Assembly: GCF_037031225.1 (NCBI RefSeq)
Contig: NZ_JAYEZN010000001.1
Span: forward strand, 1,116,001-1,180,000
Direction of reading: 5' to 3'
Length of the DNA: 64,000 bases
From: Halorientalis sp. LT38
GTDB lineage: Archaea; Halobacteriota; Halobacteria; Halobacteriales; Haloarculaceae
Both the position numbers and the translations under genes were made by a program. Below are positions 2,467 through 38,107 of this stretch, piece by piece. A model generated the notes under the pieces. The model made no database searches. It saw only the letters and a list, made by a program, of their open reading frames with translations, and had not been told where the DNA came from. How positions within the stretch are numbered: the first letter of the stretch is position 1; every line of letters begins with the position of its first letter.

Positions 2467-2991
2467 ATGGATATGACCGCCATTCCCACTGATCCCGGTG
2501 TATACTGTATGTTTGATCTGGATGACACCCCCACTTATGCTGGGCAAACCAGTAATCTCCGAAGCCGGCTACGTCAACATTTCGTTCGTCAAGACTCCAG
2601 CGTTTCAAGCTACGGGCGACTTGATCCTTGGGACATCGCTTCGGTAGAATGGTGGACCACCGATCAAACCGACAAAGCAGAGCGAGACTTGCTAAACACA
2701 TTCCAACCCTATCTGAACTTCCCAGCGGAGAGTGGTTCTCAGCCAATAAGTGGAGAATTCGATTTTGAGGAGCCTGACGGTAAATTCGCGCTCTTCTCCG
2801 ACGAGGAACAGGATTTTCGTCGGCAACCGTACAACCGTGTCAAGCAGAAAATCGAACACATCAACCGCATGGTGGACAAAATCAAGTATGCGAACCACAG
2901 CGACGATACACGACAAACGCTCTACGAGCACAAACGCATCCTGGAAGAGAACCTCCAAGACTTCCTCGGGGTCGACGACATCCCAGAGTGA
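2467..2991 (+). CDS. GIY-YIG nuclease domain protein
   Basis: The N-terminal 85 residues carry the GIY-YIG pattern: GVY at 11-13, YAG at 24-26, then the conserved Arg-rich helix (SNLRSRLRQHF) and an acidic residue in TDKAERDLLNTFQPYLN. Catalysis in this family is metal-dependent hydrolysis of one DNA strand. The C-terminal half (about 100-174) is charged and helical and may be a coiled coil. The gene has its own promoter and is convergent with the GHKL/DpdA operon, with 12 bases between the stops. It marks the left end of the island. A second GIY-YIG-like protein marks the right side (31746-33107). Role in restriction is inferred. Confidence 0.75.
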   Translation: MDMTAIPTDPGVYCMFDLDDTPTYAGQTSNLRSRLRQHFVRQDSSVSSYGRLDPWDIASVEWWTTDQTDKAERDLLNTFQPYLNFPAESGSQPISGEFDFEEPDGKFALFSDEEQDFRRQPYNRVKQKIEHINRMVDKIKYANHSDDTRQTLYEHKRILEENLQDFLGVDDIPE

Positions 2992-3003: not shown

Positions 3004-4536
3004 TTAGGAGACCTTATCCTTTAACTCGAGGACCGGGATTGTTTTCGGATCGGTATCGCCGTACTGGATATTGTTGTTCTGGAAATCGAAGCGGATGGAT
3101 TCGCCCATATATGACGAGCGCTCAATTCGGGTCAGAGCGTCAAGATCACCGAGCTTCCAGCAGACGAATTGGTCGATGTTGGTAAGCGGTGTCTCCTCTT
3201 CAAAGAAGTCGCTAAGTTTCACCTGCAATGACGCATTGTCGAACCCATCGTCGGTAGCGAGAATCGCATTGACCTCGTTGTCCATCTGGAAGTCCGCAAT
3301 CTGTATGTTTTCAGGTGCACCGTTGGCGCTGTACCGTTCTAATGCGGCTATGACCTCAGCTGAGTTTGACGGCGAGAGCCCCTCCTGCTTTTGGGTGCGT
3401 TCCAAGCGTTCTTGCAGAGAGCTTTCCTGAGACTGGATACTTCGTTTCTTGTCCTCAAGTTTTCGGCGTTCGATATAATTCTGATACCATGAGTCCTGAC
3501 ATACCTTGGTCATGTACCGATCCAGTTCGTCCGTGATAGCTTGGTATGCATCACCGGATTTGTTCCGGATTTTCTCTCGGTTAGCCGAAAGTTCCAAGCC
3601 CTGACAGTTGGCGATGAAAAAGAAGTGGAAAAACTCGTTGTCCGCACCTATGGCGTCGTTGTACCGTTCAACCTTGATGTGGTCTTTCGCCAGCCAAATA
3701 CCAAATTGGGCAGAGTGTTTGCCATAAGTCGGCAACTTGTTTCGTGCTTCCTTTCCACCAACCATTCCAACAACTTCAACGGTCAGTTCACGGCCGTCAT
3801 CAAGAGTCACGGTCAGCTCTCGGGGTGGATAGTGCTTGCACATTTCCTCGGCAACTAACTCGCCATCTGGATCCAGGTTTTCAGCAGGGAATTTTAGCCG
3901 GTTATCGGTATCGATTAGACCTCGGGTATCGTCAATCGTGGATGAGAGCTCAACGCTGATATCCATCTCGTGGAAGTCGTCGTTGAAGTGCCAGGCCGTC
4001 GAGCCGCCGATTGTCTTCCACTTGATGTAATGCTCAATCTTATTGTAGGTGAGTTGCTTCGGATCGAAACCCTGGCCAGCTCGGAATCCATGCACCTCAA
4101 TCCGGGTGCCTGACGGCTCGTCAACATCCGCCGTCTCAATTGAATAGGTGGGGAGCTCGCGGTTGTTGAGTTTCGCCCAGGGTTGGTCCATCACCGAGTC
4201 GGTCCGTGTCCCGTCCTTGACTGTCTCAACCCGGATCTTATCGCTCTTGTAGTAGATTTTTGTGCCGTGTCCCTTGTATCCAATCGCGTCGTCCTTATTC
4301 GAGTTTCCGAGATCAAAGAACGACGACAGATCGCTTTCATCCATCCCCTGGCCGTCGTCCTCGATGATTAATGTGTTCCGGCCCTCCTCGTCCTGCTCGA
4401 TATTGATATCGACCTGCGTCGTGTTCGCATCGTAGGAATTCGATAGTGCTTCTCTGATAACTTCCAACGGATCCTCGAAATCACTTGCAATCTCGATGAA
4501 CTCGTTGACCTCATTGACTTGTGGTGTCTTATGCAT
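3004..4536 (-). CDS. GHKL (MORC/Hsp90-like) ATPase
   Basis: The N-terminal Bergerat fold is clear: the N box EALSNSYDAN (29-38, Asn at 33) for magnesium, EDDGQGM (59-65) for adenine contact and the glycine-rich lid GYKGHGTK (86-93). The layout up to about residue 330 (ATPase plus transducer-like domain ending near SANREKIRNKSG) resembles MORC and Hsp90-type ATPases. A helical, coiled-coil-prone section (about 345-400) and an unrecognised C-terminal domain follow. Its ATG overlaps the end of the upstream dpdA paralogue by 8 bases, so the two are co-translated. MORC-like ATPases act as DNA-clamping or remodelling switches. A role in targeting or controlling the DNA modification enzymes is inference. 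Confidence 0.8.
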   Translation of the reverse strand: MHKTPQVNEVNEFIEIASDFEDPLEVIREALSNSYDANTTQVDINIEQDEEGRNTLIIEDDGQGMDESDLSSFFDLGNSNKDDAIGYKGHGTKIYYKSDKIRVETVKDGTRTDSVMDQPWAKLNNRELPTYSIETADVDEPSGTRIEVHGFRAGQGFDPKQLTYNKIEHYIKWKTIGGSTAWHFNDDFHEMDISVELSSTIDDTRGLIDTDNRLKFPAENLDPDGELVAEEMCKHYPPRELTVTLDDGRELTVEVVGMVGGKEARNKLPTYGKHSAQFGIWLAKDHIKVERYNDAIGADNEFFHFFFIANCQGLELSANREKIRNKSGDAYQAITDELDRYMTKVCQDSWYQNYIERRKLEDKKRSIQSQESSLQERLERTQKQEGLSPSNSAEVIAALERYSANGAPENIQIADFQMDNEVNAILATDDGFDNASLQVKLSDFFEEETPLTNIDQFVCWKLGDLDALTRIERSSYMGESIRFDFQNNNIQYGDTDPKTIPVLELKDKVS

Positions 4537-5791
4537 AGGTTGTATCTGTCTCCTCGAAGTATGGATTCATCCGTTCATTGATTAGCTGATAGACAAACTT
4601 TCGGAAGCCTTTCTGGTCCTTCACGGCCTCCTCAAGATACTCAGCTACCTGTTCCTGATCACTCTCGGCGATTAATTGACGGTACTGACGGAGCTCCCGT
4701 TGCTGGATCGCCAAATTATGTGCTGCGACTGAGCCGAGGATATCCTTCTGGTACAGGTCGTCCATCTCATTCCGCATCCGTGCCCGGTGAAAATCGTCGT
4801 TACAGATACGACAATCACAGGCGTCGAAGTCCGCCTCGTCGACTGGGACGGTCTCGAACAGGTTGACACTGTACTTCCCGTTGATCGCTTGGTGTAGGTA
4901 GGAGGCGGAGTCGAAGGAGTCAGCTCCAACGGCGACGAGCAATGGCATCGCCTTCCCTGAAATACCGAACACGTGCAGTGGAAGGTCGTCGTAGCCGCGT
5001 TGTTGCATCTCCCGCTTGCAGTCTGAGACGGCTTCGACCAGCACCTCAACATTGTCCTTCCGCGGAACAAGACTGCCCAAAGCTATCCCGTCGAACGCTT
5101 CAGGGATAGGTACTGCAAGTTCGTCTTCGACAAGGTCAAAAGACCGTTCGAGCATCGCCTCGTAGTAGCCGTGGACCGTCAAATAGCAGGCACCGTCAAC
5201 CTCATCGCGGCGTTCCGCGAACCGGGCAGCGTTAGCGGCGGTCTGCTCCATCTTTTCGATCCGTTCCTCGAACTCGTCATCAGGATGGATCGGATGGTCC
5301 AGATTAACCAAAATGTCGGGACCCAAGTCCAGCTGCATATCCAAGGCTTTGTCCTGGTCGATGTCCTTCTCGAAATCCTCACCCTCGAGGCCGCCGCCAT
5401 GCTTCAGGATTTTGTAGCCACCGGAGTCTGCGAAGATCATTCCGTCATAGTCGCTGAAGCAGTCCCACTCACGGACCTCGTTGTCGAGATACCAGTCCAG
5501 TTTCTTCTCACGAATCCCGTAGTCGGTCAGAGAGGCGATGGAGGTCATCACGCCGTGGAACAGGTCACTATAATCCTTCCCGGCTGTGACTTCTTTGTCG
5601 TGGGCAAGGAATTCCTTGACTGTACGATGGACGCCGCCACCGAATAGAGCGCCCTCGTTGCCACCGCCGTAGAAGTTGATGACAGGGAAAAGATGGGGGG
5701 TTTCTAAGGTACGGTCGTTGATCTGGAGCTGACCACGTCGTGCCTCACCCGCCTCTGCTACGATATCAAACGACACCATACTTTCAGTCAC
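4529..5791 (-). CDS. dpdA: DpdA-like transglycosylase, second paralogue
   Basis: Full-length TGT-fold protein of 420 residues. It has the substrate-base motif FADSGGYK (Asp 122), the GIALGSLVP loop (236-243) and GADSFDSASY, whose Asp 294 sits where the TGT nucleophile lies. It also has a zinc site formed by Cys 325, 327 and 330 with His 358. It departs from tRNA TGTs (GISGK replaces the usual GVG segment) in the way DpdA proteins do. DpdA exchanges guanine in DNA for a 7-deazaguanine base. It lies in an operon with 8-base overlaps on both sides (with the DUF6884-like gene and the GHKL ATPase gene). It has no ArcS domain, unlike its larger paralogue. It may act alone or as a subunit of a heteromeric enzyme. 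Confidence 0.8.
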   Translation of the reverse strand: MTESMVSFDIVAEAGEARRGQLQINDRTLETPHLFPVINFYGGGNEGALFGGGVHRTVKEFLAHDKEVTAGKDYSDLFHGVMTSIASLTDYGIREKKLDWYLDNEVREWDCFSDYDGMIFADSGGYKILKHGGGLEGEDFEKDIDQDKALDMQLDLGPDILVNLDHPIHPDDEFEERIEKMEQTAANAARFAERRDEVDGACYLTVHGYYEAMLERSFDLVEDELAVPIPEAFDGIALGSLVPRKDNVEVLVEAVSDCKREMQQRGYDDLPLHVFGISGKAMPLLVAVGADSFDSASYLHQAINGKYSVNLFETVPVDEADFDACDCRICNDDFHRARMRNEMDDLYQKDILGSVAAHNLAIQQRELRQYRQLIAESDQEQVAEYLEEAVKDQKGFRKFVYQLINERMNPYFEETDTTYA

Positions 5792-6245
5792 CGTGCGCCG
5801 GTACGGATCGGCTGCTTGAAACTAGATGCTTCAGTCGCTTACCTTTCATACCAATGCCACTTCCCTCGATATAGTGGACTGGAACATCGACAGCAGCTTC
5901 AAGTCCATCAACAGCCGGCAGATAATCATTTCCAAGATTGATCCATACTTTATCATACTCATTCTCCTTGACTTTCTTTGAAAGATCACTGACCAGCTCG
6001 TCGTTCAGTTCGTTAGCACGATTTGTGTCCATCTTACGATCATAATATTCTATTTTATCATCTGGTTCAACGATGCCATGCTCAGCAGATATAATTATGA
6101 TGTCAAGTCCAGGCTGAAATCGGTCCGCGCGCAGCGCCTTCTTTATGATTCTGAAGAAGTAGCCATCATACAAATCAAGAGCAGGCACCGGTGTGTCCAC
6201 CGGTTCCTTAGTCGCGGAACACGACTGGACGAGTAGTGACGCCAT
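5784..6245 (-). CDS. DUF6884-like small protein of the dpd operon
   Basis: This 153-residue protein has the hallmark sequence blocks of DUF6884: LLVQSCSATK at the start (4-13), ALDLYDGYFF (23-32), then IIISAEHGIVEPDD and YYDRKM. The CSxxK block and the GIV/P block recall the PCSxxKPY and GLYGPVP blocks of ArcS-type DUF5591 domains, one of which ends the neighbouring DpdA fusion protein. The two may share a fold and act on the same base. It starts 76 bases after the DpdA-ArcS gene and overlaps the next dpdA by 8 bases. A nucleotide- or base-tailoring role is an inference from context; the family has no firmly established reaction that I know. Confidence 0.65.
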   Translation of the reverse strand: MASLLVQSCSATKEPVDTPVPALDLYDGYFFRIIKKALRADRFQPGLDIIIISAEHGIVEPDDKIEYYDRKMDTNRANELNDELVSDLSKKVKENEYDKVWINLGNDYLPAVDGLEAAVDVPVHYIEGSGIGMKGKRLKHLVSSSRSVPAHGD

Positions 6246-6321: not shown

Positions 6322-8235
6322 TTACAGCGAACTGGTAAATCGCTCCACCAGTTCGTCGATGTTCTCGCCACGGAAGTGCTCGGTAAGCTGGAGAGCTCGC
6401 GGATCAGATGGGTATATCTCACCCCGGCCATACTGAGTGAACGCCTCGTCGATAGCATGGCGATATGCTTTGCTCGTCGTGTAGGCCAGGATGTGGTCGA
6501 ACTGCTCACCGAATTGGTCCAAGTACTGGACGAGGCGATTCGTAACGAATTCGATTTGGTCCTCATCCGCAGTGGTGAGGACATACTCGTAGCTCATCAC
6601 AGGGTCCGCCTCCTCGAACTGCTCTGGCACAGGACCATACAGCCCTGAGACGGATATCTTGTGGAACTGGTCCCGGTACTCCTCAAGCGGAGAGAGCACT
6701 ACCTGCTGCGTCCTAGAATCGGAGTAGGGTTTCTCCTGGCTACAGGGCAGAATCAGCAGGACATCTGCCTCGCTTGGCGGCTGGTAGGCGTTCTGCTGGA
6801 GGATGTTGAAATCGTTGGGACCATGCTTCAACGAGATGGTCCGTTTCTCCCGTGTCGTGTCCTCAACCCCTTCGAGGAAGCCAGAGAGTTTGGTCTGGAA
6901 CGTTTCGGCGTCCGGTCCCGCAACAAGTTCCTCGTAGCCGATGTCGGCCAACTGTTCGCGGAGCTCCGGGTTGTGAAGCTGCGCTCGCTTCAACCCTTTC
7001 TCGACGATGTTCTTTCCCTGAGCGAACTTCGCCACGAGTTCAAGCAGTTCGCCGTCATCGATGGCATCCCGTACCTCCTGCATCTGGCGGCTGTACAACT
7101 CGAAGTTATGGTGAGCTATCTGTGCGTAGTACTCGCTCTTGTAGTGCTTGCCGTGCTCTCCCTCGATACGTTTGTAGCTGACATCGGACTCCAACAGGGC
7201 GTGCCGCATATCGTCGAAGTGGATATCTTGGCACGCCTGACAATCACAGTACTCCTCGTCCCAGTCGCTCAACTTGGTCCGCTGCCACGTCTCTGGATGG
7301 ATGAAACTCTTGTTGCGAGCCGCTTTCAGGTAGTTCGAGGAGTCGAATGTATCGACGCCGAGAAGAGAGAGTAGTGGACAGAGCCGGCCACTGATACCGA
7401 AAACGTGGAGCGCGATGTCATCGTACCGTTCCTCCGGTATCGCGTCCCTTGCACCTTGGACGATGTCGACGAGGACATCCGGCGAGTTGCTGAGCGGGAC
7501 AAGTGATCCAAGCGCAAAGCCCTCGAACGCTTCATCGAGTTCCTCAGCCCGGTCCAGAAATCGGCTCACGTACCAATTGACGTCCTCGTAGCTATGGCCG
7601 TGAATCGCCACGTAGACGGACGGTGTCTTCTCGACACCCCATTCCTCAAGCTTCTCATCGTCATTGAGCAGCTGTAGACATTGGACTGCGTTGTCGATAC
7701 TCCGCTCCATTCGCTCGGTGGCCTCATCCCGGTTCAGGTTCTGCGGAATCGGGAAGTCCAACGTGGCGACGATGTCCGCACCGTAATCCAGCTGTAGCTT
7801 CAGGATGCTCTCTGGATTCGTGTAGATACCCCAGTCGTTCTCACTCCCACCCTCTTCCGGCGGCTGTCCGAACGTCGTTGAGTTCATCAGCTTGAACCCG
7901 CCGGAATCGACAAACAATGGCTGCGTGAACCCCGGCTCAACGTCACTCTCCTCGAAGTGCTGTTTCAGCGGCTTCTCCCGCCACGCCGCCAGGTTGTCCG
8001 GGGTGAGGTTGTAGTCGAGAAACGTCATCGTCTGGAACATGATACCCTGGACGGTGTCACTCTGAAAGAGATGGCGACGCGTGTACCGCCAAATACCGCC
8101 TGATTTTGGTGTTGTTCCTCCGATAAGGTTCGCAACAGGGAGAAGTGCAGGTGTCTGAATCTGGCCGGCAGGCGTCTCTATCTCGCCTCGCCGACCGTAC
8201 CTGGCTTTTGCGAGAGTCCTGAATGCAGCCATCAA
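6322..8235 (-). CDS. dpdA: DpdA transglycosylase fused to an ArcS-like (DUF5591) domain
   Basis: Residues 1-430 are a TGT-fold DpdA module: VDSGGFK (Asp 110), ALGSLVP (241-247), GVDTFDSSNY (Asp 298 as nucleophile candidate) and zinc ligands Cys 330, 332, 335 with His 375/376. After a linker, residues 490-637 form a domain like the core of archaeosine synthase ArcS. Pro 497, Cys 498, Lys 502, Pro 503, Tyr 504 and Ser 507 fit the ArcS motif PCx3KPYx2Sx2H, but the final His is Gln 510. ArcS adds lysine to the preQ0 nitrile in tRNA. Fusion to a DNA transglycosylase suggests that inserted preQ0 is converted in place in DNA. It leads the leftward operon. A second Met follows directly and either could be the start. 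Confidence 0.85.
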   Translation of the reverse strand: MMAAFRTLAKARYGRRGEIETPAGQIQTPALLPVANLIGGTTPKSGGIWRYTRRHLFQSDTVQGIMFQTMTFLDYNLTPDNLAAWREKPLKQHFEESDVEPGFTQPLFVDSGGFKLMNSTTFGQPPEEGGSENDWGIYTNPESILKLQLDYGADIVATLDFPIPQNLNRDEATERMERSIDNAVQCLQLLNDDEKLEEWGVEKTPSVYVAIHGHSYEDVNWYVSRFLDRAEELDEAFEGFALGSLVPLSNSPDVLVDIVQGARDAIPEERYDDIALHVFGISGRLCPLLSLLGVDTFDSSNYLKAARNKSFIHPETWQRTKLSDWDEEYCDCQACQDIHFDDMRHALLESDVSYKRIEGEHGKHYKSEYYAQIAHHNFELYSRQMQEVRDAIDDGELLELVAKFAQGKNIVEKGLKRAQLHNPELREQLADIGYEELVAGPDAETFQTKLSGFLEGVEDTTREKRTISLKHGPNDFNILQQNAYQPPSEADVLLILPCSQEKPYSDSRTQQVVLSPLEEYRDQFHKISVSGLYGPVPEQFEEADPVMSYEYVLTTADEDQIEFVTNRLVQYLDQFGEQFDHILAYTTSKAYRHAIDEAFTQYGRGEIYPSDPRALQLTEHFRGENIDELVERFTSSL

Positions 8236-8376: not shown

Positions 8377-8844
8377 ATGCCTCAACGCACACTAGGCGAA
8401 CCAGCTATCTCCTCACAGGATCTTACAGAGGCTGAACGAACCCTCCATATCGGACGTGATCGGCCAATACGGATCAGCGCAGGCCACCGTATTCTGCACC
8501 ACGACGGCAAGTGTAGCCGTCCCCACGGCCATAACTACGCAATCAGTGTCGGGGTGACCGGCACCCTGACCGAGGAAGGATGGGTCGTCGACAAAGGGAG
8601 TATTACTGACGTATTATCTGACTGGGACCATAGGTTCCTAGTTGAACAGGGCGACCCGTTGATCGAGGCATTCGAGGCCAGCGGCGACGGCGACGCCGTC
8701 GTCGTCCTTGACCAGCCACCAACCGCCGAAGTCATGGGACTCGTCCTCGAACGACGATTGGAGGATGCGTTACCGGACACGGTCAGTGACGTCGCAGTCG
8801 AGATCCGAGAGACCGGTGAACTAGCTGCTGGAGGCTCGTTGTAG
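8377..8844 (+). CDS. queD: 6-carboxytetrahydropterin synthase QueD
   Basis: QueD makes 6-carboxy-tetrahydropterin from dihydroneopterin triphosphate, the first dedicated step to preQ0. The family signature is intact: zinc ligands His 37 in SAGHR and His 50/52 in PHGHNY, catalytic Cys 46 in GKCSRPHGHNY, the Asp 84/His 85 pair in DWDHRFL, and Glu 118 in PTAEVM that binds the pterin. At 155 residues it is normal length with a short N-terminal extension. It begins the rightward queD-queE-queC operon, whose genes are 4 and 8 bases apart. The genes supply preQ0 to the DpdA proteins encoded divergently. GTP cyclohydrolase is not here and must come from the host. Confidence 0.93.
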   Translation: MPQRTLGEPAISSQDLTEAERTLHIGRDRPIRISAGHRILHHDGKCSRPHGHNYAISVGVTGTLTEEGWVVDKGSITDVLSDWDHRFLVEQGDPLIEAFEASGDGDAVVVLDQPPTAEVMGLVLERRLEDALPDTVSDVAVEIRETGELAAGGSL

Positions 8845-8848
8845 ACCG

Positions 8849-9630
8849 ATGCCGGCGAGCTCGGACGCCCCAACGGTCGATGACGAGGCAGCTAATCCAG
8901 ATGCCCAAGAGGGGCTACCGGTAAACGAGTTGTTCTACTCACTACAGGGCGAGGGCAAACTAGCCGGGATGCCAAGCGTGTTCATCCGGACCAGCGGGTG
9001 TAACCTCCGGTGTTGGTTCTGTGACTCGTACCATACTAGCTGGGAACCGACCCATGCCTGGCTCGACATCGACGCTATCATCGACCGCGTCACCGACTAC
9101 GACGAAGCTGAGCACATCGTCGTGACCGGTGGCGAACCGTTGCTCCACGATGAGACAGCCGAGTTACTGGACCGACTCAGTGCTGCCGGCTTCCACACGA
9201 CCGTCGAGACGAACGGCACGATCTACCGCGACACCGCGATCGACCTTGCAAGTATCAGTCCGAAGCTGGCGAACAGTACCCCAACCGCAGGGAAGGATCC
9301 GCAAGGCGACGGAGAATGGGCTGACCGACATGAGAACGCCGGATCGACATCGACGTGCTGACCCAGCTCGTGGAGACCTACGAGTTCCAGCTGAAGTTCG
9401 TTGTCACCGGCCGCGACGATATACAGGAGATCAACCAGTTGGTCGGCCGACTGCGGGACGCTGCTGCGACGGCGATCCGGGATTCGGACGTGTTGTTGAT
9501 GCCGGAAGGAGCGACGCGGGAGCGGTTGGCGGAGAGGCGTGAACTGACTGCTGAGGTGGCGATGGAGCACGGATATCAGTATACGCCGCGGCTTCACGTC
9601 GACCTCTGGAATGACGCACCAGAGACCTAA
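8849..9630 (+). pseudogene. queE: 7-carboxy-7-deazaguanine synthase QueE, frameshifted
   Basis: QueE is the radical SAM enzyme that contracts carboxy-tetrahydropterin to 7-carboxy-7-deazaguanine. The first reading frame (8849-9361) holds FYSLQGEG, the cluster-binding CNLRCWFC (Cys 51, 55, 58), VVTGGEPLL and SPKLANSTP, then ends prematurely in TGA. The family's remaining sequence (RIDIDVL, YEFQLKFVV, LLMPEGAT, GYQYTPRLHVDLWND) continues in another frame to 9630. One extra base near 9338-9341, where a C could have been lost from a CCGG run, rejoins the frames. Everything else is conserved, so this is either a recent mutation or a sequencing error. If real, preQ0 supply depends on the host QueE of the archaeosine pathway. 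Confidence 0.88.
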
Positions 9631-9638
9631 CCACGACG

Positions 9639-10349
9639 ATGACTGACCATACAGACGACGAAGGCAGTGCTGTTGTGCTTGTATCGGGCGGTATGGATAG
9701 TGCGACGGCAGCGTTCGAGGCGAAACAGAGAGGTTACGACCTGTACTTCCTCCACACTACCTATGGCCAAGAGACAGCGGACAAAGAGTCGGAGTGCGCC
9801 CAGCAGTTGGCCGGCTGCATGGATGTAACGGACTTCCTCCACATCGAAACCGATCACCTTGCCCGGATTGGTGCCTCCAGTCTCACCGACGATAGTATTG
9901 ACGTCAAGGAAGTGAATCTCGACAGCGACGAGGTCCCGTCCAGCTACGTTCCGTTTCGGAATGCGAACCTGCTGTCGATGGCGACGTCGTACGCTGAGGC
10001 CAACGACTGCGAGGCGATTTTCATCGGTGCGCACAGTGAGGACTATTCCGGCTACCCGGACTGCAGACCGGAGTTCTTCGACGCATTCCACCAGGTCATC
10101 GAAGTTGGGACGAAACCGGCGACCTCGATTGAGTTGGTCGCGCCGTTCGTCGACTGGAACAAGACCGAGATTGCGGAGCGTGGCCTCGACTTGGATGTGC
10201 CGTACGAGTTGACATGGAGCTGTTACCGGGAGGAAGCTCCGGCTTGCGGTACCTGTGACGCCTGTGCCTACCGGCTCAAAGCGTTTCAGGAAGCCGGTGT
10301 CGAGGATCCGATTGAGTACGCGGAGCGACCAACCTATTGCGAGTCGTAG
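9639..10349 (+). CDS. queC: 7-cyano-7-deazaguanine (preQ0) synthase QueC
   Basis: QueC converts 7-carboxy-7-deazaguanine to preQ0 with ATP and ammonia. The PP-loop motif SGGMDS is at residues 16-21. VPFRNANLLSMA and FIGAHSEDYSGYPDCR are typical substrate-pocket blocks. The C-terminal zinc site is complete (CYREEAPACGTCDAC). The 236-residue length is normal. It is the last gene of the queDEC operon, starting 8 bases after the queE stop. It carries no amidotransferase (Gat) fusion of the kind linked to archaeosine in some phages, so the base delivered to DpdA should be preQ0 itself. It is convergent with the coiled-coil gene at 10416. Confidence 0.94.
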   Translation: MTDHTDDEGSAVVLVSGGMDSATAAFEAKQRGYDLYFLHTTYGQETADKESECAQQLAGCMDVTDFLHIETDHLARIGASSLTDDSIDVKEVNLDSDEVPSSYVPFRNANLLSMATSYAEANDCEAIFIGAHSEDYSGYPDCRPEFFDAFHQVIEVGTKPATSIELVAPFVDWNKTEIAERGLDLDVPYELTWSCYREEAPACGTCDACAYRLKAFQEAGVEDPIEYAERPTYCES

Positions 10350-10415: not shown

Positions 10416-11108
10416 CTATCCCAGTCGGATTTCAAGGTAGTCGGCAAGACTTGACCCGGTCAGTGCCTCGCGTTCTTCCTCGGAAAGGTCATTGAAGTAC
10501 AGCGGATCGTCTGATAGGAGCTGGTCCATAACATCTTCGAGAGTGGTACCGCTGTAGCTTCCGAGCAAGTCTTCCTGGACCTGTTGCAGCGCGTTCGACA
10601 TCGTGTCTGCAACGTCGCGGGCCTCCTGTTGATTCGCCTCGAACGAATCCTCGGCTTCGTCAGTGTAAACCTGGGCTTTCCAGTCCCAGTCGTCGAGCAA
10701 CGACTCAAGTGCTTTGAGTTTTCCAATGTCGGCCGCCTCAACGTGCTCATTCAATTTCCGCATCGCCCTGACCCGGTCCCGTTCCTCAGTCCGTTCCTCT
10801 TGAATCGCATTTTCGATCTGGCGGGCCTCCTGACTGACCTGGTCCTCGACGTCGTCGATGACGTCGTCCAAGGCGTCAAAATCCCGGTCGTCGGCGTACC
10901 CTTTCGCCTCGCGGACCTTCTCCTTGGCCTCGTGAGAGACCTCGACCGCTAAACCGAGGAAGTCCCTGGCGATGATCGCCTGGAGCATGGTCTCCTCCAT
11001 CTCGGTCGCTACCTCCTCTAACCGGTCCTCCAAGTCCTGGCGGAGATACTGTTGGTGGACCGTTTCCAGCTCCTGCTCGAACAGGGACTGGTCACTCGTC
11101 TCCGACAT
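10416..11108 (-). CDS. Coiled-coil protein, last gene of the dpdGH operon
   Basis: The 230-residue protein is almost entirely charged helix (many Glu, Asp, Arg and Gln), with probable coiled coil from about residue 10 to 120 and a short C-terminal domain ending in SSLADYLEIRLG. No catalytic motif is visible. Its start overlaps the end of the dpdH-like gene by 17 bases, so it is very likely made together with it and may be an adaptor for the ATPase. It may correspond to one of the small bacterial Dpd proteins such as DpdI, but I cannot show that from sequence. Confidence 0.65.
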   Translation of the reverse strand: MSETSDQSLFEQELETVHQQYLRQDLEDRLEEVATEMEETMLQAIIARDFLGLAVEVSHEAKEKVREAKGYADDRDFDALDDVIDDVEDQVSQEARQIENAIQEERTEERDRVRAMRKLNEHVEAADIGKLKALESLLDDWDWKAQVYTDEAEDSFEANQQEARDVADTMSNALQQVQEDLLGSYSGTTLEDVMDQLLSDDPLYFNDLSEEEREALTGSSLADYLEIRLG

Positions 11109-14100
11109 AGTACTGACTCACCTCCTGGAAATACGGGGCAAAGGATGACGACGACTCTCCTGTCTCGAAGTCGATGTCGTTGAACGCCTCGATGACTTCG
11201 TGCTCCATCAGTTTGTACTCGATCAGCATCTTGTGGATCGCGTCCTGCGTCGACGTTCCCAACGTGTCGAGACACAGCTGACTGGCAGCGACCACCTCGT
11301 CCACCTCGGCCTGGCTGTACGAATCGAACTGTAGCAGCGACTCGTACAACGAGCGGTCTACCTCGTAGTTATCCAAGACGTCGACCTTGTCATGGATCCG
11401 CGCCATGTCGGTCCCTGCTAGTTCATCCTGCGCTGTTCGGGCCGTCGAGTATTCCTGCATCTGGTCTTCCTGCTGATCCAGTGACTTCTGCATCCGATAC
11501 GCCTTGGTCACCATGTCGACCAGTTTCGTGTCGGTATCGAATCGGACACGTGAGCTCAACTCGTCTGGGTCAGCACGGAGACGGCTCAACACGTCCTGCG
11601 GGTCGTGATAGGAGAACCACCGACGGAGACGAGGCAGGTCCAATGTGGAATCATTGACGGCGAGACGCTCTGCGACAAGTGCGTCGAACGCCTCCGCATA
11701 CTCCATGAACTCCTCGATGTACTCCTGTGCTTCAGGAGCCAGTTCATCGGTTAGCGCCGTCTCTAACGTGGTGTCCAATGCGTAGTCCTCACCCTCGGCG
11801 AACCGCTCGTTCAAGGTTGCTGCCGTTACCTCTTGCCACGGATCGTCCAGTACGACGATCCAGGCATATGCTGCGAGGACGAAGTCGTCGAACCCGTACG
11901 GTGGATCGTACTTGTAGTAGACCGAGGTATCCTCGATATACTGCTCCCTGACCTTGGCCCGCCACTGCCGGGCATACTCCGTTAACTGGCCACCGACCAA
12001 CGTGAGGATCCGTTGCTCGTCGGCACTCGCATCCGCCTCGTCACTCCGGATCCCGTATTTCAGCAGTTCACGGACATCAGACCGCTGGAAATCCTGCGGA
12101 TCAAGCACGATTTGGTCCGGGCTAGGCGAGGACTCCGCAGAGGGATACACAAACGGATCATCCGACCGGCTGAGGTTGTACCGGAGGTCGCAGTCCGTCC
12201 ACAGCGAGTAATCCTGCGTCAACGTATTGATAAGGTCAGTGAACGCCGTCCGCAGGTAGGCGTCCGTCTCGACATACGATTCGTCCTGCGGGTTAGTGTA
12301 CCAGTTGTCCACGTACCCTCTCTGCTCGTTGATGATCCGCTCAACACGGCTCAAACCTCCACCATCACCGCTTTCACCATCTTCATCGCCTCCCTCGCTT
12401 TCCTCCTCGTCTCCACCTGTCTCATCCTCGCTTTCGTCGTCCTCGTCGGTTTCACCCGGCTCTGTCTCTTCATCCTCGGGCGGAATATACTCGACACCGG
12501 GAATCTTAACATGGTCATCCAGCAGTTCGATGTTTGCCGGGAGGTCGTCCGCTGCCGGGTTCTCGGGGAGTAGCCCGAATGCTTCGAGGAAGGCCCGGTT
12601 AACGGCGATATACTCGTCGTATCGGTCGGTATCGCCGTACCATTTGGCGACGTGGGCGAAGACTTCGGCTTCCCGGTAGACGTCGTCATGGGCTGCCACC
12701 CGGTTGGTCACGTGATTCAACGGGCTTGCCGTGGCGGGACACGTTGACGTTCCGTTGAAGTATTCGAGCACGGTCTCGAAGACGACGATGATCAGTTCAC
12801 GGGGAGACTGCTCGCTCTCATCAAGCCCGGTGTAGATCCGTTCGATAAACTGCTGGTTGAAGGGGAACAGGTCGCGGAAGCTGTCGTCACACAGTCCACA
12901 CGTCGCGCAAAGTGAGCCCGGCTCTGGGTTCAGCAAGGTGAAGCCGCCGTCGTCTCTGTCGTAGCGGACGCTGCCATCGTGGTGCTTGATGTAGCCGAGG
13001 TACGGCCGGATGAAGTCAACTGCCGTCTCGTCGTCAAGGAAGAGGACCTGGTTGGAGTTCTGTTTGTTCGTTCGGTAGAACCGGAACCGGTCCTCCGCTG
13101 TCCGTTTGTGGAGAACCGCCGTTGAATCGCGGGTGCCAGCAACGATGAAATCCCAGTTATCACCGGGGTTGTCGCGTTCCATGAATTTGCGGAGCTGTCG
13201 CGCCTGCATCCCGGTGATCGAGAAGTCCTCGAAGACAGCGACCGGCCGTTTGTCACCGTATTCCTCTTTGAACTTCTCACCAACTTCCTCCAGTAGATCA
13301 GTCAACGGCGGGGTATCGTACTGGTCGAGTAGTGCCTGCCAGAACCCGCTGCTCAGTTTCTCCGCTGGATGCCCCTCAAAGGCATCAGCGTCTTCATCAA
13401 AGACCTGTAGGAAGCTATTCTGTTCGTATTCCTGCTCAGTCACCAAGTTCGGTTCTTCGCCGTACTGCCGTGGCTCAACCAACCGGTCGCGGATCCGTTC
13501 CGCCACGAACTCGACGATGGCATCCTCTTGCTCCGGTGTCGTCGAGGTCTCATAGCCGTCCCACCCAATCTCCAACAACGCGGTGTAGACGGCCTGGCTA
13601 GCGACCATCCGCGGCCGCTGTTTGATGTCGTCTTCAAGCCGCTTGAACTGTGACGAGGTCTCCAACGTCTCGTCAAAGTGGTCCTGGTAGAATTCAGGGA
13701 TGTCCTCCGTCAGCATCGACATCAAGTCCGTGTCTTTGTCGACGCGGAGGATCGGCCGGTCAGCGTCGTTCTCTAACCGGTGAGTGAGCGCCACGCAGAG
13801 TTCCGATTTCCCGGTTCCGACCTCGCCCTCAATGACGACGGCGAAGTTCTTGTTGCGGCTTCCGGAGAAATCCTGGTAGACATCGTTCTCGGTAACGACT
13901 CGTTCCTCATCGGTTTCCAGCGATGGGCCGTCGACACCGCCTTCGGTCTGGAAGAGTTCGATCGGGCGGTGCGTGAACCAAAACAGGTCTGGATTCTCGG
14001 CGCGAACGGCAGCAACCCGGCTGAACAGGCTGCGCAGGTCGGATTCGTCCTTTTCGTGGAAGTGTGGGCAGAACAGATCGTCGGGAGGGGAAGATGCAGT

Positions 14101-14112
14101 TTCGCTACTCAT
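11092..14112 (-). CDS. dpdH: DpdH-like large P-loop ATPase
   Basis: Walker A is GEVGTGKS at 96-103. A Walker B-like strand reads PVAVFEDFSI (about 310-320) and is followed by a VAGTRDS sensor-like segment. A cysteine cluster CATCGLC lies near 405-411. An acidic low-complexity linker (Glu/Asp/Gly, about 555-605) separates this STAND-like ATPase half from a helical C-terminal half without recognised domains. Size, position next to a DpdG-like wHTH protein (4-base ATGA overlap) and the Dpd context fit DpdH, which in bacteria belongs to the restriction side of the system. Mechanism is unknown; ATP-driven recognition of unmodified DNA is a guess. Confidence 0.7.
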   Translation of the reverse strand: MSSETASSPPDDLFCPHFHEKDESDLRSLFSRVAAVRAENPDLFWFTHRPIELFQTEGGVDGPSLETDEERVVTENDVYQDFSGSRNKNFAVVIEGEVGTGKSELCVALTHRLENDADRPILRVDKDTDLMSMLTEDIPEFYQDHFDETLETSSQFKRLEDDIKQRPRMVASQAVYTALLEIGWDGYETSTTPEQEDAIVEFVAERIRDRLVEPRQYGEEPNLVTEQEYEQNSFLQVFDEDADAFEGHPAEKLSSGFWQALLDQYDTPPLTDLLEEVGEKFKEEYGDKRPVAVFEDFSITGMQARQLRKFMERDNPGDNWDFIVAGTRDSTAVLHKRTAEDRFRFYRTNKQNSNQVLFLDDETAVDFIRPYLGYIKHHDGSVRYDRDDGGFTLLNPEPGSLCATCGLCDDSFRDLFPFNQQFIERIYTGLDESEQSPRELIIVVFETVLEYFNGTSTCPATASPLNHVTNRVAAHDDVYREAEVFAHVAKWYGDTDRYDEYIAVNRAFLEAFGLLPENPAADDLPANIELLDDHVKIPGVEYIPPEDEETEPGETDEDDESEDETGGDEEESEGGDEDGESGDGGGLSRVERIINEQRGYVDNWYTNPQDESYVETDAYLRTAFTDLINTLTQDYSLWTDCDLRYNLSRSDDPFVYPSAESSPSPDQIVLDPQDFQRSDVRELLKYGIRSDEADASADEQRILTLVGGQLTEYARQWRAKVREQYIEDTSVYYKYDPPYGFDDFVLAAYAWIVVLDDPWQEVTAATLNERFAEGEDYALDTTLETALTDELAPEAQEYIEEFMEYAEAFDALVAERLAVNDSTLDLPRLRRWFSYHDPQDVLSRLRADPDELSSRVRFDTDTKLVDMVTKAYRMQKSLDQQEDQMQEYSTARTAQDELAGTDMARIHDKVDVLDNYEVDRSLYESLLQFDSYSQAEVDEVVAASQLCLDTLGTSTQDAIHKMLIEYKLMEHEVIEAFNDIDFETGESSSSFAPYFQEVSQYYVGDE

Positions 14113-15890: not shown

Positions 15891-18800
15891 TCATGGTGTT
15901 TGTTTTAATGCCTCCGCGAGCAGCGTCCTGTTCAGCAAGTCGTTGTCGAGATAGGTAGCCGGTGTCCGCTCGATCAAGAGGCAGTTCTCACAGTAACCGC
16001 TACACTCGTCACAGTCAACCACGTTTCGAACCTCGTCGACGACAGCGTCCAAGTTCCGGTCAACCTGTGTCGCGATCCCGTTGCCACCCTGCCGGTTATC
16101 GACGATGTAGACACGGACTTCGTCACCGGTCGTCATCACCTTCACGCGGAAATCATCTTGGTCACTCTGAGTTTCGACGGCGACCGCTTTCGTCAACGCT
16201 TGTTCCAAGCTGATGAACAGTTGGGGCCACACCGCCTCGTCTTCCTGCTCCAACAATTCATCCGGAAGACGATCAGCCACCGTTGCCTGGTCAAATGTGA
16301 GACAGATTCCCTGTGTCGCGTACTGTTTCCCAACAGGCGCGTACCGAGCATCGCCGTCGTCGCTGTCAGAGATCCGTGCTTCAGACCGTTTGATCTCTTT
16401 CCCGGACCCCATCGTATGCCGACGTTCGAACACCGGGATGAAGTCGATCACATCGTAGCCGCCGACCGCGACGTCGCAGGGAAGCCCGAATACCGTGGCT
16501 TCTTCGCCTGCCGTCGTTTCGTCACGGCTCGTAACGTGGGTCGTCATGATGGGCGAGGTACTGTACTGATCTTCGAACTGGCGGGCTTTCCGGCAGTTGA
16601 CTGCCTGGACGCCGTGGACCGAGATCGCGTCTAACGGGCTGCCGCAGTGGGGACACTGCTCTGCTGCTGTCCGGTAGCTTTCGAACGGCCGGGTACAGTC
16701 CTCATTGGTACAGATCGCCACCGTCTGTAACGATTCCTGCGTGCCTTCGACGTCCGACACCAGGTAGGTTGAGCCGTACAGGGTCATCACTGCCCCTCGC
16801 TCATTTTCCTCACCGGGGTAGAAGTCGTAGAGGCGGCCGTCACCTTGGAACGAGATGCTTTCACTGCTACCCTCGAACTGGACGGGGAACTGTTGGCCGA
16901 ACTCGCGGTAGTTCGCTAAGTAGCCAAGCCGATTAAGCCAGAAATCCAGGCGGTCATTCCCGTCACGCACGTCGTCGAGGTCGGTGCTGTCACTGAAGCT
17001 GCGGAGCTGGCCACAAGTTTGCTGTGTCCGTTGCCGGAAGCTCACCGGGCCGTCACTGGTAAAGACCGCGTCGAAGATTTCCAAGCCGCGCTGCCCGAAC
17101 ACGGCCTCGATATGGTCCCGCAACCGGTCCGTCACGTCGTCACGGACGAAGGTGCGTAGCTCGTCAAGATTCGCTTCCACTCGGTCGGCGAACTCAGCAA
17201 CCGAGTCAACCGACTGATCAATCTGGTAGGTCTCCTCGAAGGTGTCGCTGGGATGCGGATTACGGGCGAGATAGGCAACGACTTCGGTCACGACGTGGCC
17301 GGCCAGGACTTCGTCGAAGTCAAACGGGTCCGGGACACGGACAGGGTCGAAGCTGCCGAAGAACCGGTCCAGGTCGTCGTAGTAGTGTGCGTCGACAGGA
17401 TGTGTGCCGCGGACCGTAGTGGCTACCAAGGATTCGCTGCCGCGTGTCCGTCCGGTGCGGCCACTGCGTTGCACGTAGTTGGTCAAGGTTGGCGGTATCC
17501 CGACCTGTGCCACTGAATCCAGGGTGCCGATGTCCACGCCGAGTTCCATCGTCGGGGTCGCGCTGACGATGTTGACGTCCGGATCAGATTTCCGGAACCC
17601 TTCCTCGATGGCGCTCCGCAGTGTCGGTGGAACGTCCCCTTTGTGGATTCCGACCGTGATGAAGTCCAACTCCATCGTCTCGACCTTGTCGCGCGATACT
17701 GGCGGCCCTTCACTCGGGATGAGGGGTGCAAGGATGTCGTGGCCCCAGTGGTCAACCGGGTAATCCCAGTCTGTCTCGACGTCTGCCCAGCCGAGGAGGG
17801 TCATTGAGTCGTCTTCCTCGACACGGAACCGTTGGTGGACGTCGACCGTGTTGCCGCAGGTCGGGCAGTGAGCAAGGCCGTCACCGTCACGGGGGACAGG
17901 TGATGCCGTGTAACAGTCGTCGCAGAACGTTACCTGGGGAACCAGTTGGAGGTCGGTCTTACTCGCGTAGTCGTGGACGATGAAGATGCCGCCGCCGACA
18001 TCACTATAGCCGTCACATGCTTCCAGACCGTCGATCTGGTCTTCGATGTACTCGAAGACGTCGTCCTCAGTTGCTTCATCTTTCCCCGCGTTGAGAATCG
18101 TGTTGCGGACGTCATCCCACGTTTTGAGTTCTAGGACGTCGCTGTCCAGCAAGCCCTGCAACACGTCATCGACAACTTCGTCGATTTCCTGTTCGGTGAA
18201 CCTTGTCTCGGACTCGAGCTTGTTGACCAACCGTTCCCGGGTGTACCCCTGGAACTTGATTCCGTGTTTCTGGAACTGGGGCGGGAACCGGCTGACGAAG
18301 AGATTGAACACCTCGTGGCCGATTGCCGCGGTCTTCGGATCGGGACAGGTGTAGACCCAGGCAGGGGTGACAAGCGCTGCTTCACGGAGGTGCTGGCACT
18401 GGGAGAGCCGTGCGTTCGGCTCAATCTCGTTCCACAGCTCAACGAGGATATCGTTCGCATCCGTTTCCCGGTCCGGAGTGTTCTGTCGCAGCGGCTGCCA
18501 GTACTTCTCCCGCAGCGTATCCAACACCGGGTAAAATAGCGACCGGGCCTCGGCTCGGCCACCTTCCTCGATCAACTGCTTCACGTACAGCGTCTCAGCG
18601 GTCAACCCGTACTCCGTCCCGATGATCTCGTTGCTGACCGATTCAGCTGTCGACCGTGAATCAGAGAAGACCAACGTCTTCTCGGACGGCATCGACCGGC
18701 ACAGCGACGTCAACATGAACGAAAGCAGGGTCGGCGTCGGCACCGTAATATCAGTCAAACGGAGCCGCGACGTCGTACAGCCAGGACACGGACCGTCCGT

Positions 18801-20630
18801 CCCGCCGCCATAGACCGGTTGAAACACCTCTTCATCCTCGTCCTCGTCTTCGTTTTCGGTGTCGGCTTCGACGAACGGGTGGTGGCAGGTCCGGCAAAAC
18901 CGGAGTTCCCGTGTTTGGTGGCCCTCGGGACAGGACCGGCCACGGGTCACTTCCTCGCATGTCTGGCACCAGTAGATCTTCCGCGGCGGTTTGGCGAACA
19001 TGTGGTACTTCGCCGTCACCATCCCGGCTGCCCGGCCCAAGGCAAGCAGAGCTGACATCGCCTCTTCCGGGTTCGATGCACCTGCTTCCTCGAGCCGGTT
19101 CACGAGGTCAGCGTAGTGCTCGAATTCGACCTCGGTGGTCGACTCGTCCATGAACCACGATGCAAGAGTTGCGACTTCCGGGACCGTATCACGGATGAAC
19201 TGGAACCATCTGCCGCCGAGATCGCCGTGCTCCACCACCTGTTCCGTCAAGGTATCCAGTTCATCGGCGGCGAGGCCAAGTGTCCCACCGTTCTGGACAG
19301 CTCTCGCTGTACCGTCCTCCTGTTCGGTGTCGATGCGATCGGCGATCGGGGCGAATACCCAGTCTCGGTGCTGGTCTGGCACGGTCAACGGGTCTGGCCC
19401 TGCCAGGAGTCCGATCTCCTCCAATGTAGTGACGGCGCCGGTCAACTGGGGATAGCTGTCGCAGAACGTCTCCCGGTCGACGTCGTGGCGTCCGATGAGG
19501 ACGAGTGTTTCAACGATGTCTCGGAGTGAGCATTCCGCAAACCTGTCGAAGTCAGTCGTCCCGGTGACCGGGAAGTCGCGAGCGGTGAACCCGAGCTCGT
19601 TGACGTCGTCTCGGTCCGCCCCGGTCAGGACGGATGCCAAGTCGCTGGGGTTCTCGATGGTGGCAGAGACCAGCGTGACCTGCGGGTCGTGCGCTGCGTA
19701 AAACTGTTTGAGGCGACGGGTGAGCAACCCGATACTTGACCCGGAGATCCCGCTCCACACGTGGGCCTCGTCGAAAATTAAGTGCTGGACCGGGCTTTTC
19801 TCCGGTCCTTGCCCCAAGATGTCACGGGTAGCCTCGTTGTCGCTGACGAACATGTAGTCGAGCGCTTCCGGGTTCGTCAGGAGGATGTCGACCCCGTCCC
19901 GGATCTGCTCCCGAGTGATCTTGAGCCACGGATACGTCCAGTCCTCGCTGCCCGGTGTCCCATCGCTGGTCACCCGCAAATCGTCCTGCGTGCGGGGACA
20001 TTCCAGGCCGCGAACGTTGGCACCGATATCCAGGTCGAAGTCACGCGGTCCGACAGCTGCCGGCGTATCTCGGTCCCAGATTCCGATCGTGACGCGGTCT
20101 TCGCGTGGCAGTTCTTGGTTCACCGTGTCGATGTAGCGGAGGAACCGGTTGAGCTGGTCGACACCCAGCGTCTTCATCGGGTAGATGACGATCGCTTTCA
20201 ACCCGTCGGCGTCCGTCGACACACAGTCATTGAGTACCGGGAGGAAGAACGACTCCGTTTTCCCGGTCGCTGTCGGCACAGCCAAGATGTTGTCGTTGGG
20301 GTCCGTCTCGATGGCCTCAATCGTATCTGCCTGGTGCTGATAGAGCGACCCGGTACGGTCCCCGCCGAATAACTCGTCGACGACCGCGTCCACAACCCGG
20401 TCATCGTAGCCGTACTGGTCCAATAACTCGGTGGCTGGCCGCTCCGCTGTGGCTGGCGGTGAGACAAACTCGAGATACGGTCCTTTGGTATCCACCAATT
20501 CGTTGGAGACGAAGGAGCTAGCGTTGGTGACGCCTGAAATACGGTTGAGCTTGGTAAGTTTCCGATTCCACCACGTGATCTCGGAGGCACGATCCGTGGC
20601 GGTTGTAAATGCATTCAACGGGGACGGCAT
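15891..20630 (-). CDS. DUF1998-containing superfamily 2 helicase
   Basis: Large (1579 residues) DExH helicase. Motif I is ATGKTES at 121-127, motif II DEAH at 287-290, motif III SAT at 322-324. Motif IV-like KTLVFSDSR, motif V ATPTMELGVDIG and motif VI QRSGRTGRTRG lie in the second half. Zinc knuckles interrupt it (WCQTCEEV, FCRTCHHPF, CPGC, FCDDC, CPTC, CEDC-like CPHC). The C-terminus is a DUF1998 domain with GGNGIATQV and CDECSGYCENC. This is the architecture of COG1205/YprA-type helicases and of helicases in Dpd and DISARM defence systems. It leads the leftward operon with the 298-residue, DpdG, DpdH and coiled-coil genes. DNA translocation or unwinding for restriction is inferred. Confidence 0.85.
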   Translation of the reverse strand: MPSPLNAFTTATDRASEITWWNRKLTKLNRISGVTNASSFVSNELVDTKGPYLEFVSPPATAERPATELLDQYGYDDRVVDAVVDELFGGDRTGSLYQHQADTIEAIETDPNDNILAVPTATGKTESFFLPVLNDCVSTDADGLKAIVIYPMKTLGVDQLNRFLRYIDTVNQELPREDRVTIGIWDRDTPAAVGPRDFDLDIGANVRGLECPRTQDDLRVTSDGTPGSEDWTYPWLKITREQIRDGVDILLTNPEALDYMFVSDNEATRDILGQGPEKSPVQHLIFDEAHVWSGISGSSIGLLTRRLKQFYAAHDPQVTLVSATIENPSDLASVLTGADRDDVNELGFTARDFPVTGTTDFDRFAECSLRDIVETLVLIGRHDVDRETFCDSYPQLTGAVTTLEEIGLLAGPDPLTVPDQHRDWVFAPIADRIDTEQEDGTARAVQNGGTLGLAADELDTLTEQVVEHGDLGGRWFQFIRDTVPEVATLASWFMDESTTEVEFEHYADLVNRLEEAGASNPEEAMSALLALGRAAGMVTAKYHMFAKPPRKIYWCQTCEEVTRGRSCPEGHQTRELRFCRTCHHPFVEADTENEDEDEDEEVFQPVYGGGTDGPCPGCTTSRLRLTDITVPTPTLLSFMLTSLCRSMPSEKTLVFSDSRSTAESVSNEIIGTEYGLTAETLYVKQLIEEGGRAEARSLFYPVLDTLREKYWQPLRQNTPDRETDANDILVELWNEIEPNARLSQCQHLREAALVTPAWVYTCPDPKTAAIGHEVFNLFVSRFPPQFQKHGIKFQGYTRERLVNKLESETRFTEQEIDEVVDDVLQGLLDSDVLELKTWDDVRNTILNAGKDEATEDDVFEYIEDQIDGLEACDGYSDVGGGIFIVHDYASKTDLQLVPQVTFCDDCYTASPVPRDGDGLAHCPTCGNTVDVHQRFRVEEDDSMTLLGWADVETDWDYPVDHWGHDILAPLIPSEGPPVSRDKVETMELDFITVGIHKGDVPPTLRSAIEEGFRKSDPDVNIVSATPTMELGVDIGTLDSVAQVGIPPTLTNYVQRSGRTGRTRGSESLVATTVRGTHPVDAHYYDDLDRFFGSFDPVRVPDPFDFDEVLAGHVVTEVVAYLARNPHPSDTFEETYQIDQSVDSVAEFADRVEANLDELRTFVRDDVTDRLRDHIEAVFGQRGLEIFDAVFTSDGPVSFRQRTQQTCGQLRSFSDSTDLDDVRDGNDRLDFWLNRLGYLANYREFGQQFPVQFEGSSESISFQGDGRLYDFYPGEENERGAVMTLYGSTYLVSDVEGTQESLQTVAICTNEDCTRPFESYRTAAEQCPHCGSPLDAISVHGVQAVNCRKARQFEDQYSTSPIMTTHVTSRDETTAGEEATVFGLPCDVAVGGYDVIDFIPVFERRHTMGSGKEIKRSEARISDSDDGDARYAPVGKQYATQGICLTFDQATVADRLPDELLEQEDEAVWPQLFISLEQALTKAVAVETQSDQDDFRVKVMTTGDEVRVYIVDNRQGGNGIATQVDRNLDAVVDEVRNVVDCDECSGYCENCLLIERTPATYLDNDLLNRTLLAEALKQTP

Positions 20631-20887: not shown

Positions 20888-21340
20888 TTAGTCTCCTGGG
20901 TTGATGGCTTCTTCAACACTAAATAACGATTCGATACAATCTCGCAAGCTGTCATCATAAGAACACCGGTTCGCCTCGCCGTCGGTCACTTCACGATGTT
21001 GTGTCTTGCCTTCCTCAAAGTACACTTCAAGATTCGAGATACACGTATACTCCGAGATGGACTCAACCACCAACACAACCATGTTGTTACGGTACTTGTC
21101 CATGAGGCGATGATCAAGCTGTTCTGCCTCGATGCAGACGCCGAAATCGATGTCTGGATATCTCTCTGGGAGGCGGTGATAGTAGTCGTCACTACCCGGG
21201 GTGTCAGTCGGACGGTTCACCGTAACACGTTCTACATTTGGAATCGCTAATGCGAGGATTTCGAGGTCATCTTGGGCGAGTTGTGTCGTGAGATATCGCC
21301 GTACACCTCGCGGAAACGAGTCGCAACTGAGCGTTACCAT
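20888..21340 (-). CDS. Unassigned 150-residue protein coupled to a DpdJ-like helicase
   Basis: No family is recognised. The protein has alternating strands and helices (ILALAIPNVERVTVNRP, NMVVLVVESISEYTCISNLEVYF) and no membrane segment. Its ATG lies inside the end of the upstream helicase gene (7-base overlap), so it is translationally coupled. A 257-base gap with a promoter separates it from the next operon. In the plus-strand copy of this helicase the equivalent downstream position is taken by the PLD-fold DpdK-like gene. The two small proteins show no similarity that I can see. Confidence 0.6.
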   Translation of the reverse strand: MVTLSCDSFPRGVRRYLTTQLAQDDLEILALAIPNVERVTVNRPTDTPGSDDYYHRLPERYPDIDFGVCIEAEQLDHRLMDKYRNNMVVLVVESISEYTCISNLEVYFEEGKTQHREVTDGEANRCSYDDSLRDCIESLFSVEEAINPGD

Positions 21341-37961: not shown

Positions 37962-38107
37962 ACCCCTAGCACTGAAACAACCCATCTCCTTAACGGTAAG
38001 CGTCCGATCAGCAAACCGGGTATCGGATACAGATACCGACGATCCTAATTTTCGCAGAATCAGCGTCACTGCCCCAGTTTCTGCACATCATCGAATACTG
38101 TATTAAG

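Follow-up and report, generated by a model that had tools for sequence, protein, structure and literature searches.

A stretch of 64,000 nucleotides from Halorientalis sp. LT38 (hereafter the window, with positions counted from its first letter) encodes a single polypeptide in which a catalytically complete, apparently DNA-type base-exchange (TGT) domain is followed by a DUF5591 domain like that of ArcS. For this fusion and the gene island around it, we observed the domains, the predicted fold, the motifs, their conservation and the co-occurrence of genes described below. With a little better than even confidence, we propose that the protein is a two-headed DNA enzyme of a haloarchaeal Dpd-type island, which would insert preQ0 into DNA and then cap its nitrile, most likely with lysine. 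Judged by its genes, the module that contains the fusion is a new form of predicted Dpd-type DNA modification.

A TGT domain and an ArcS-like domain are joined in one open reading frame

The initial annotation of this DNA had described one open reading frame (ORF) at 6322–8235 encoding a two-domain fusion, and both Pfam and a scan of 391 haloarchaeal genomes, 38 of them with the fusion, bore this out. The ORF is intact and encodes 637 amino acids from a TTG at 8235 (the numbering used here) or 636 from an ATG at 8232, which is the more likely start because homologues share it. The protein has the following features.

6322..8235, minus strand: TGT-DUF5591 fusion protein, 637 aa, start TTG 8235 or, likelier, ATG 8232
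7018..8196, minus strand: TGT (base-exchange) domain, residues 14–406 (Pfam PF01702, E 2e-31)
Within the TGT domain, minus strand: catalytic Asp110 (DSGG) and Asp298 (TFDS), an invariant pair, and Zn motif CDCQAC
6829..6912, minus strand: flexible inter-domain linker, residues ~442–469 (pLDDT < 50 in the AlphaFold2 model)
6421..6795, minus strand: DUF5591 (ArcS-like) domain, residues 481–605 (Pfam PF17884, E 8e-17)
6706..6747, minus strand: motif PCSQEKPYSDSRTQ (P497–Q510), with putative nitrile-reacting Cys498 and Lys502; C498, K502, P503, Y504 and S507 invariant

The TGT domain, with its two catalytic aspartates and Zn motif in place, scored 109.7 bits against PF01702 (gathering score 26.3), and the DUF5591 domain scored 62 bits (versus 26) in Pfam. 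The NCBIfam ArcS model (NF040592) matched residues 481–598 (E 3e-31), with the whole fusion reaching 108.6 bits, far under the equivalog cut-off of 440 bits. A Pfam scan of the fusion found no TGT_C2 or PUA domain, even at E 1. An AlphaFold2 model of the whole protein had a mean pLDDT of 82, with the linker at about 442–469 disordered, and its best match in the PDB was the archaeosine TGT (ArcTGT) 1iq8 (E 1.6e-20). Modeled alone, the C-terminal domain had a pLDDT of 90 and a sole significant PDB match, 2q07/AF0587 (E 5.7e-6, TM 0.59 by query); a sequence-profile search likewise gave this as the one clear relative in the PDB (E 3e-11). This was the structure prediction that the initial annotation had suggested as a check, and its outcome means that the fold is not unrelated to DUF5591; the ArcS-like C-terminal domain claimed there is a DUF5591 domain by profile, motif and structure prediction. 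AF0587-like proteins have the fold and motif of the fused domain, but they stand alone at about 230 aa, with no TGT. In the sampled non-halobacterial euryarchaea (L117–L136), such stand-alone DUF5591 proteins of ~230 aa, with the motif PCAxxKPYxxSPSH, were common besides ArcS.

The ArcS motif PCx3KPYx2Sx2H had been read in the C-terminal domain as retaining Pro-Cys, Lys-Pro-Tyr and Ser, and P497, C498, K502, P503, Y504 and S507 are exactly as given. The further claim, that Gln510 replaces the last His, names the right residue but does not describe the family: the full motif is the norm among fused proteins, and because most homologues keep the His (nearly all of them do), Gln510 is a trait of the window copy and one other, L020. 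Codon 510 is CAG (Gln) in the window versus CAT (His) in L005, a relative of 93% identity. Across 28 diverse homologues, down to about 50% identity, Asp110, Asp298, C498, K502, P503, Y504 and S507 were invariant, and both heads of the fusion must therefore be under strong constraint; the conservation of the motif is far beyond chance. In the distant half of the fused family (L023, L012 and relatives), the TGT zinc motif CxCxxC becomes Cx5CxxC, and L023 has lost it.

Phylogeny places each half in a clade of its own

The fused TGT was the sister of TGT2, a second TGT encoded in the same module (tree support 99/99). The Asp of the DSGG motif was missing in 12 of 12 ArcS sequences checked and present in every fused protein examined. 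Forcing the fused TGT to group with ArcS or with TgtA gave topologies that were rejected (AU p 0.015 and p 0.0001, respectively). An origin of the fusion as a duplicate of the ArcS gene with a revived TGT runs against the same AU p 0.015 and against the separate DUF5591 clade described below, a rejection that is moderate, not absolute, since the TGT of ArcS evolves fast. In a wider tree, a 93/97 split put the tRNA-type enzymes (TgtA, ArcS, Tgt) on one side and the fusion, TGT2 and true DpdA on the other; in a smaller tree, a joint clade of fusion and DpdA did not appear, and forcing it was not rejected (AU p 0.475). The DpdA proteins of phages 9g, nt-1, HVTV-1 and 7-11 were left out of the trees, being too divergent for PF01702 or NF041059.

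The name 'DpdA' used in the initial annotation could not be upheld. NCBIfam DpdA (NF041059, cut-off 200 bits) gave no match to the fusion at E <= 0.01, PADLOC gave no match and did not name it DpdA, and TGT2 scored 27 bits against NF041059. By these models and trees, the fusion is not a DpdA in the strict NCBIfam sense, and its TGT forms a haloarchaeal clade of its own next to TGT2; 'DpdA-like, DNA-type' remains a fair label.

The fused DUF5591 domains likewise formed their own clade (93/93; 92% of bootstrap trees place them on one side of a branch), distinct from ArcS (99/97) and the stand-alone AF0587-like proteins, and about equidistant from both. PC-x3-KPY-x2-S-x2-H is common to all three groups, and later GxxP, E and Y positions are mostly shared. 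Clade membership provides no read-across of function. ArcS itself (archaeosine synthase alpha, NF040592) has the layout TGT-like, DUF5591, TGT_C2, PUA, all of which the host ArcS possesses. The fusion has the same order of TGT-like domain and DUF5591 and the motif PCx3KPYx2S; unlike ArcS, it has a catalytically complete TGT of another lineage, no TGT_C2 or PUA, a DUF5591 domain of its own clade and a place in a Dpd-like island. Because ArcS already combines a TGT-like domain with DUF5591, the distinctive point of the fusion is a complete TGT of putative DNA type without TGT_C2 and PUA.

Identity to the window copy ranged from 93% down to about 50%, and in 9 of the 38 fusion genomes the search matched a single open frame in two parts. 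Close homologues occur in the public strains Halorussus halobius HD8-83, Halobellus captivus ZY8, Halorubrum sp. CBA1125 and Natronosalvus hydrolyticus AArc-curdl1. No fusion was found outside Halobacteria in a phylum-wide sample of 393 genomes, the other Halorientalis genomes in the class sample were without it, and some copies were borne on plasmids. This sporadic and partly plasmid-borne occurrence, together with absence from the window's genus-mates, indicates a mobile pattern. We rejected a virus-borne gene: IMG/VR contained no relatives of the fusion, whether searched with the single protein or with the family alignment, and the phage matches were ordinary Tgt-like ones. A plasmid of Haladaptatus sp. 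YSMS36 (L069) carries two copies of the fusion in one locus, which also encodes DEAD helicases and a protein with a PLD domain.

The fusion lies in a Dpd-like island

The initial annotation had passed over TGT2 and, next to the fusion, a DUF6884 protein resembling DpdC; both belong to the following set of neighbors.

3004..4536, minus strand: GHKL/HATPase_c_3 (MORC/MutL-like) ATPase, 510 aa (PF13589, E 7e-15)
4529..5791, minus strand: TGT2 (second TGT), 420 aa, catalytic residues intact (PF01702, E 1e-28)
5784..6245, minus strand: DUF6884 protein, DpdC-like, 153 aa, with CSATK and ISAEHG motifs (PF21818, E 8e-14)
8377..8844, plus strand: QueD (Pfam, NCBIfam)
8849..9630, plus strand: QueE, as two overlapping ORFs (8849–9361 and 9355–9630; 170 + 91 aa; Radical_SAM, E 2e-17)
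9639..10349, plus strand: QueC, island copy (Pfam, NCBIfam)
11092..14112, minus strand: DpdH-like ATPase, 1006 aa (PADLOC DpdH, E 2e-6)
15891..20630, minus strand: DpdJ/DruE-like helicase, 1579 aa (PADLOC, NCBIfam)

In the window, the TGT2 gene overlaps its neighbors on either side, the DUF6884 and GHKL ATPase genes, by 8 bases each. The order DUF6884, TGT2, GHKL ATPase was contiguous in 32 of the 32 TGT2 loci that we read; the fusion was usually no more than a few kilobases away, QueD/E/C were often nearby, and a subset also had DpdJ-, p298-, p289- and DpdH-like genes. TGT2 was present in 37 of the 38 fusion-bearing genomes. The window's DUF6884 protein showed weak similarity to PADLOC DpdC (E 4e-5), and its CSATK and ISAEHG motifs were invariant. 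The DpdH-like ATPase matched NCBIfam DpdH at E 7e-10, and this match, like those of several DpdJ-like proteins of the island, sits below the equivalog cut-off. The DpdJ/DruE-like helicase was kept with the module in several loci. The same island holds three large helicases of this type in all (15891–20630, 21334–25773 and 27144–31313), as well as an MkoA-like protein at 33465–38069. QueE appears frameshifted or mis-sequenced in the window; in relatives the gene is whole and encodes about 260 aa. Beside the module is a gene for a GIY-YIG nuclease (2467–2991, plus strand), a candidate effector that also occurs in L038, L039, L053 and apparently L171/L188. Four loci (L171, L172, L173, L188) have the module without the fusion and with a second stand-alone DUF6884 gene; the extra DUF6884 that we tested, from L171, was a clear member of PF21818, and the GHKL gene there is followed by a restriction gene of the GmrSD type.

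Outside the island, the host genome encodes TgtA, ArcS, RaSEA and another QueC, which makes the island genes a supplementary set; the island has no RaSEA. Known Dpd systems comprise the TGT DpdA, DpdB, DpdC (DUF6884/DUF328) and DpdD–K. Like them, the island combines a putative DNA-type TGT with a DpdC-like DUF6884 protein, QueD/E/C and DpdH- and DpdJ-like proteins. Unlike them, it has two TGTs, both outside NF041059, and a DUF5591 head, and no homologue of DpdB (DGQHR/DndB) was detected among the window proteins scanned with PADLOC or Pfam; the GHKL ATPase occupies the place of DpdB. The fusion is probably part of a mobile, restriction-like gene cluster for self/non-self marking.

A proposed two-headed enzyme for base exchange and nitrile capping

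With a catalytically complete TGT in a Dpd-like island, the best reading is that preQ0 is placed into DNA and its nitrile then converted. Here QueD, QueE and QueC of the island would provide preQ0, and the TGT head, possibly as a heterodimer with TGT2 and aided by the GHKL ATPase, would swap guanine in DNA for preQ0. The linked DUF5591 head would then attack the nitrile via Cys498 and Lys502 to cap the base. The cap would most likely arise through addition of an amine donor, with lysine serving as it does in ArcS, and would also block reverse exchange. The adjacent DpdC-like DUF6884 protein would serve as a second nitrile enzyme, paired with TGT2, and unmarked DNA would be restricted by the DpdH/DpdJ-like proteins and helicases. 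DNA as the substrate, preQ0 as the inserted base and the order of the steps are what we infer; lysine as the nucleophile, rather than water or ammonia, is the least certain element, although lysine addition would be the most likely single outcome of nitrile conversion, with hydration next.

ArcS of T. kodakarensis adds lysine to preQ0 as a nucleoside or 5'-nucleotide but leaves the free base unmodified, does not require the shape of tRNA, and forms an adduct that blocks reverse exchange (PMC11298593). These properties fit a cap that acts in cis to make base exchange in DNA irreversible. The same enzyme is active only in complex with RaSEA, free ArcS being inactive, and for M. jannaschii ArcS ammonia, Asn or Gln has been reported as the donor (PMC11298593). 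Given this RaSEA dependence and the separate lineage of the fused DUF5591 domain, lysine addition cannot simply be read across from ArcS; the interpretation in the initial annotation is therefore supported in part, its two-step order of preQ0 insertion and nitrile conversion being the best reading. Against a two-headed enzyme are the position of the DUF5591 head outside the ArcS clade, the lack of RaSEA in the island, the missing terminal His in the window copy and a TGT outside NCBIfam DpdA.

Vibrio phage nt-1 combines preQ0 insertion into DNA, as predicted for the island, with a DUF5591 protein in one genome, and its DNA contains dPreQ0, dADG and dG+ (PMC6884629), which means that mixtures of products are possible. 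Unlike the fusion, its DpdA2 and ArcS homologue are separate proteins, and its DUF5591 has CxxxR rather than CxxxK; the phage protein (L065) reads CTTTRPY, with Arg replacing the conserved Lys, and is without the terminal His.

Kinship of the nitrile domains and alternative activities

In bacterial Dpd systems, the preQ0 hydratase DpdC has a DUF6884 domain (PMC11888242; PMC12839542). In profile-profile comparisons, DUF5591 aligned with DUF6884 over about 100 residues, with the two CSxxK motifs superposed and SGxYG facing SAxxG. The fused domains gave p 1.8e-6 and ArcS 3.3e-6, compared with 0.005–0.76 when unrelated families were used and about 0.2 when profiles were reversed; an AF0587-like profile alone gave no match to DUF6884. 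This kinship suggests that the locus holds two related nitrile-chemistry domains, which may attack the preQ0 nitrile with the same Cys; besides its two TGTs, the module would thus have one nitrile head in cis and a related one in trans. A pattern of TGTs paired with nitrile heads is supported by fusions of DpdA to DUF6884 in a Halorientalis litorea plasmid (L068:4949–7852; true DpdA, 276 bits, with C-terminal DUF6884) and in Paenibacillus (L169:3762–5831; true DpdA with N-terminal DUF6884), each with a second TGT gene nearby. These proteins resemble our fusion in joining a DNA-type TGT to a CSxxK domain and differ in having a genuine DpdA, and DUF6884 instead of DUF5591.

The shared CSxxK site also raises a possibility that we consider real but clearly the lesser one: that the DUF5591 head, like DpdC, hydrates the nitrile, with water attacking the Cys thioimidate to yield 7-amido-7-deazaguanine (dADG). 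In that case, the fusion and the DUF6884 protein would both produce this base, possibly at separate sites. True DpdA is fused to DUF6884 in the two genera just named, and some dADG occurs in phage nt-1, which has an ArcS homologue (PMC6884629). Where an island lacks the fusion, an additional DUF6884 takes its place, so hydration may suffice. The fused head, however, carries the signature of ArcS/DUF5591 (PCSxxKPYSxS, VPxxxE), not that of DUF6884, and one reaction performed by two enzymes of one operon would be redundant.

TGT2 and the fusion might instead form one heterodimeric base-exchange complex, in which DUF5591 mainly binds or flips preQ0-DNA and the DUF6884 protein performs the nitrile chemistry. 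TGTs act as dimers (PMC6884629), the pairing of the two TGTs is near-obligate, and the Gln510 copy, a substitution L020 also has, may be catalytically weak. We think this unlikely, as Cys498 and Lys502 are invariant family-wide and nearly all members have the His. A second archaeosine enzyme, joining the TGT and ArcS steps on tRNA, is less probable still: similarity to ArcTGT and ArcS, and the domain order that ArcS shares, favor it, but the host already has TgtA, ArcS and RaSEA, the fusion is without the tRNA-binding domains TGT_C2 and PUA, its distribution is sporadic and partly plasmid-borne with linkage to Dpd-like restriction genes, and the trees reject joining it with ArcS or TgtA. Gln510 and the apparent frameshift in QueE might hint at an ORF that arose by chance or has decayed and has no function, but this is scarcely credible, as about 30 intact full-length homologues, diverging to about 50% identity, keep the active-site residues of both domains invariant.

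Discussion

DNA marks based on 7-deazaguanine are known from bacteria and phages. We know of no cellular system in which a single polypeptide both exchanges the base and converts the nitrile via the chemistry of tRNA ArcS. Our literature search, of partial coverage, found no paper on DUF5591 or on cellular 7-deazaguanine DNA marks in haloarchaea, and an earlier mention of the fusion is possible.

The capping enzyme that we favor opens a more far-reaching prospect, which we offer tentatively: cellular archaeal DNA may be hypermodified with 2'-deoxy-preQ0-lysine by one swap-and-cap polypeptide, while the parallel pair of TGT2 and DUF6884 may write a second base. If true, this would give a restriction system a self mark of two letters. 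Widespread in haloarchaea, the module occurs in about 10% of the species sampled, and one shared active-site motif would tie the ArcS DUF5591 and DpdC DUF6884 families together. With public strains that carry the module, the role of phage and archaeal ArcS-like proteins on DNA becomes directly testable.
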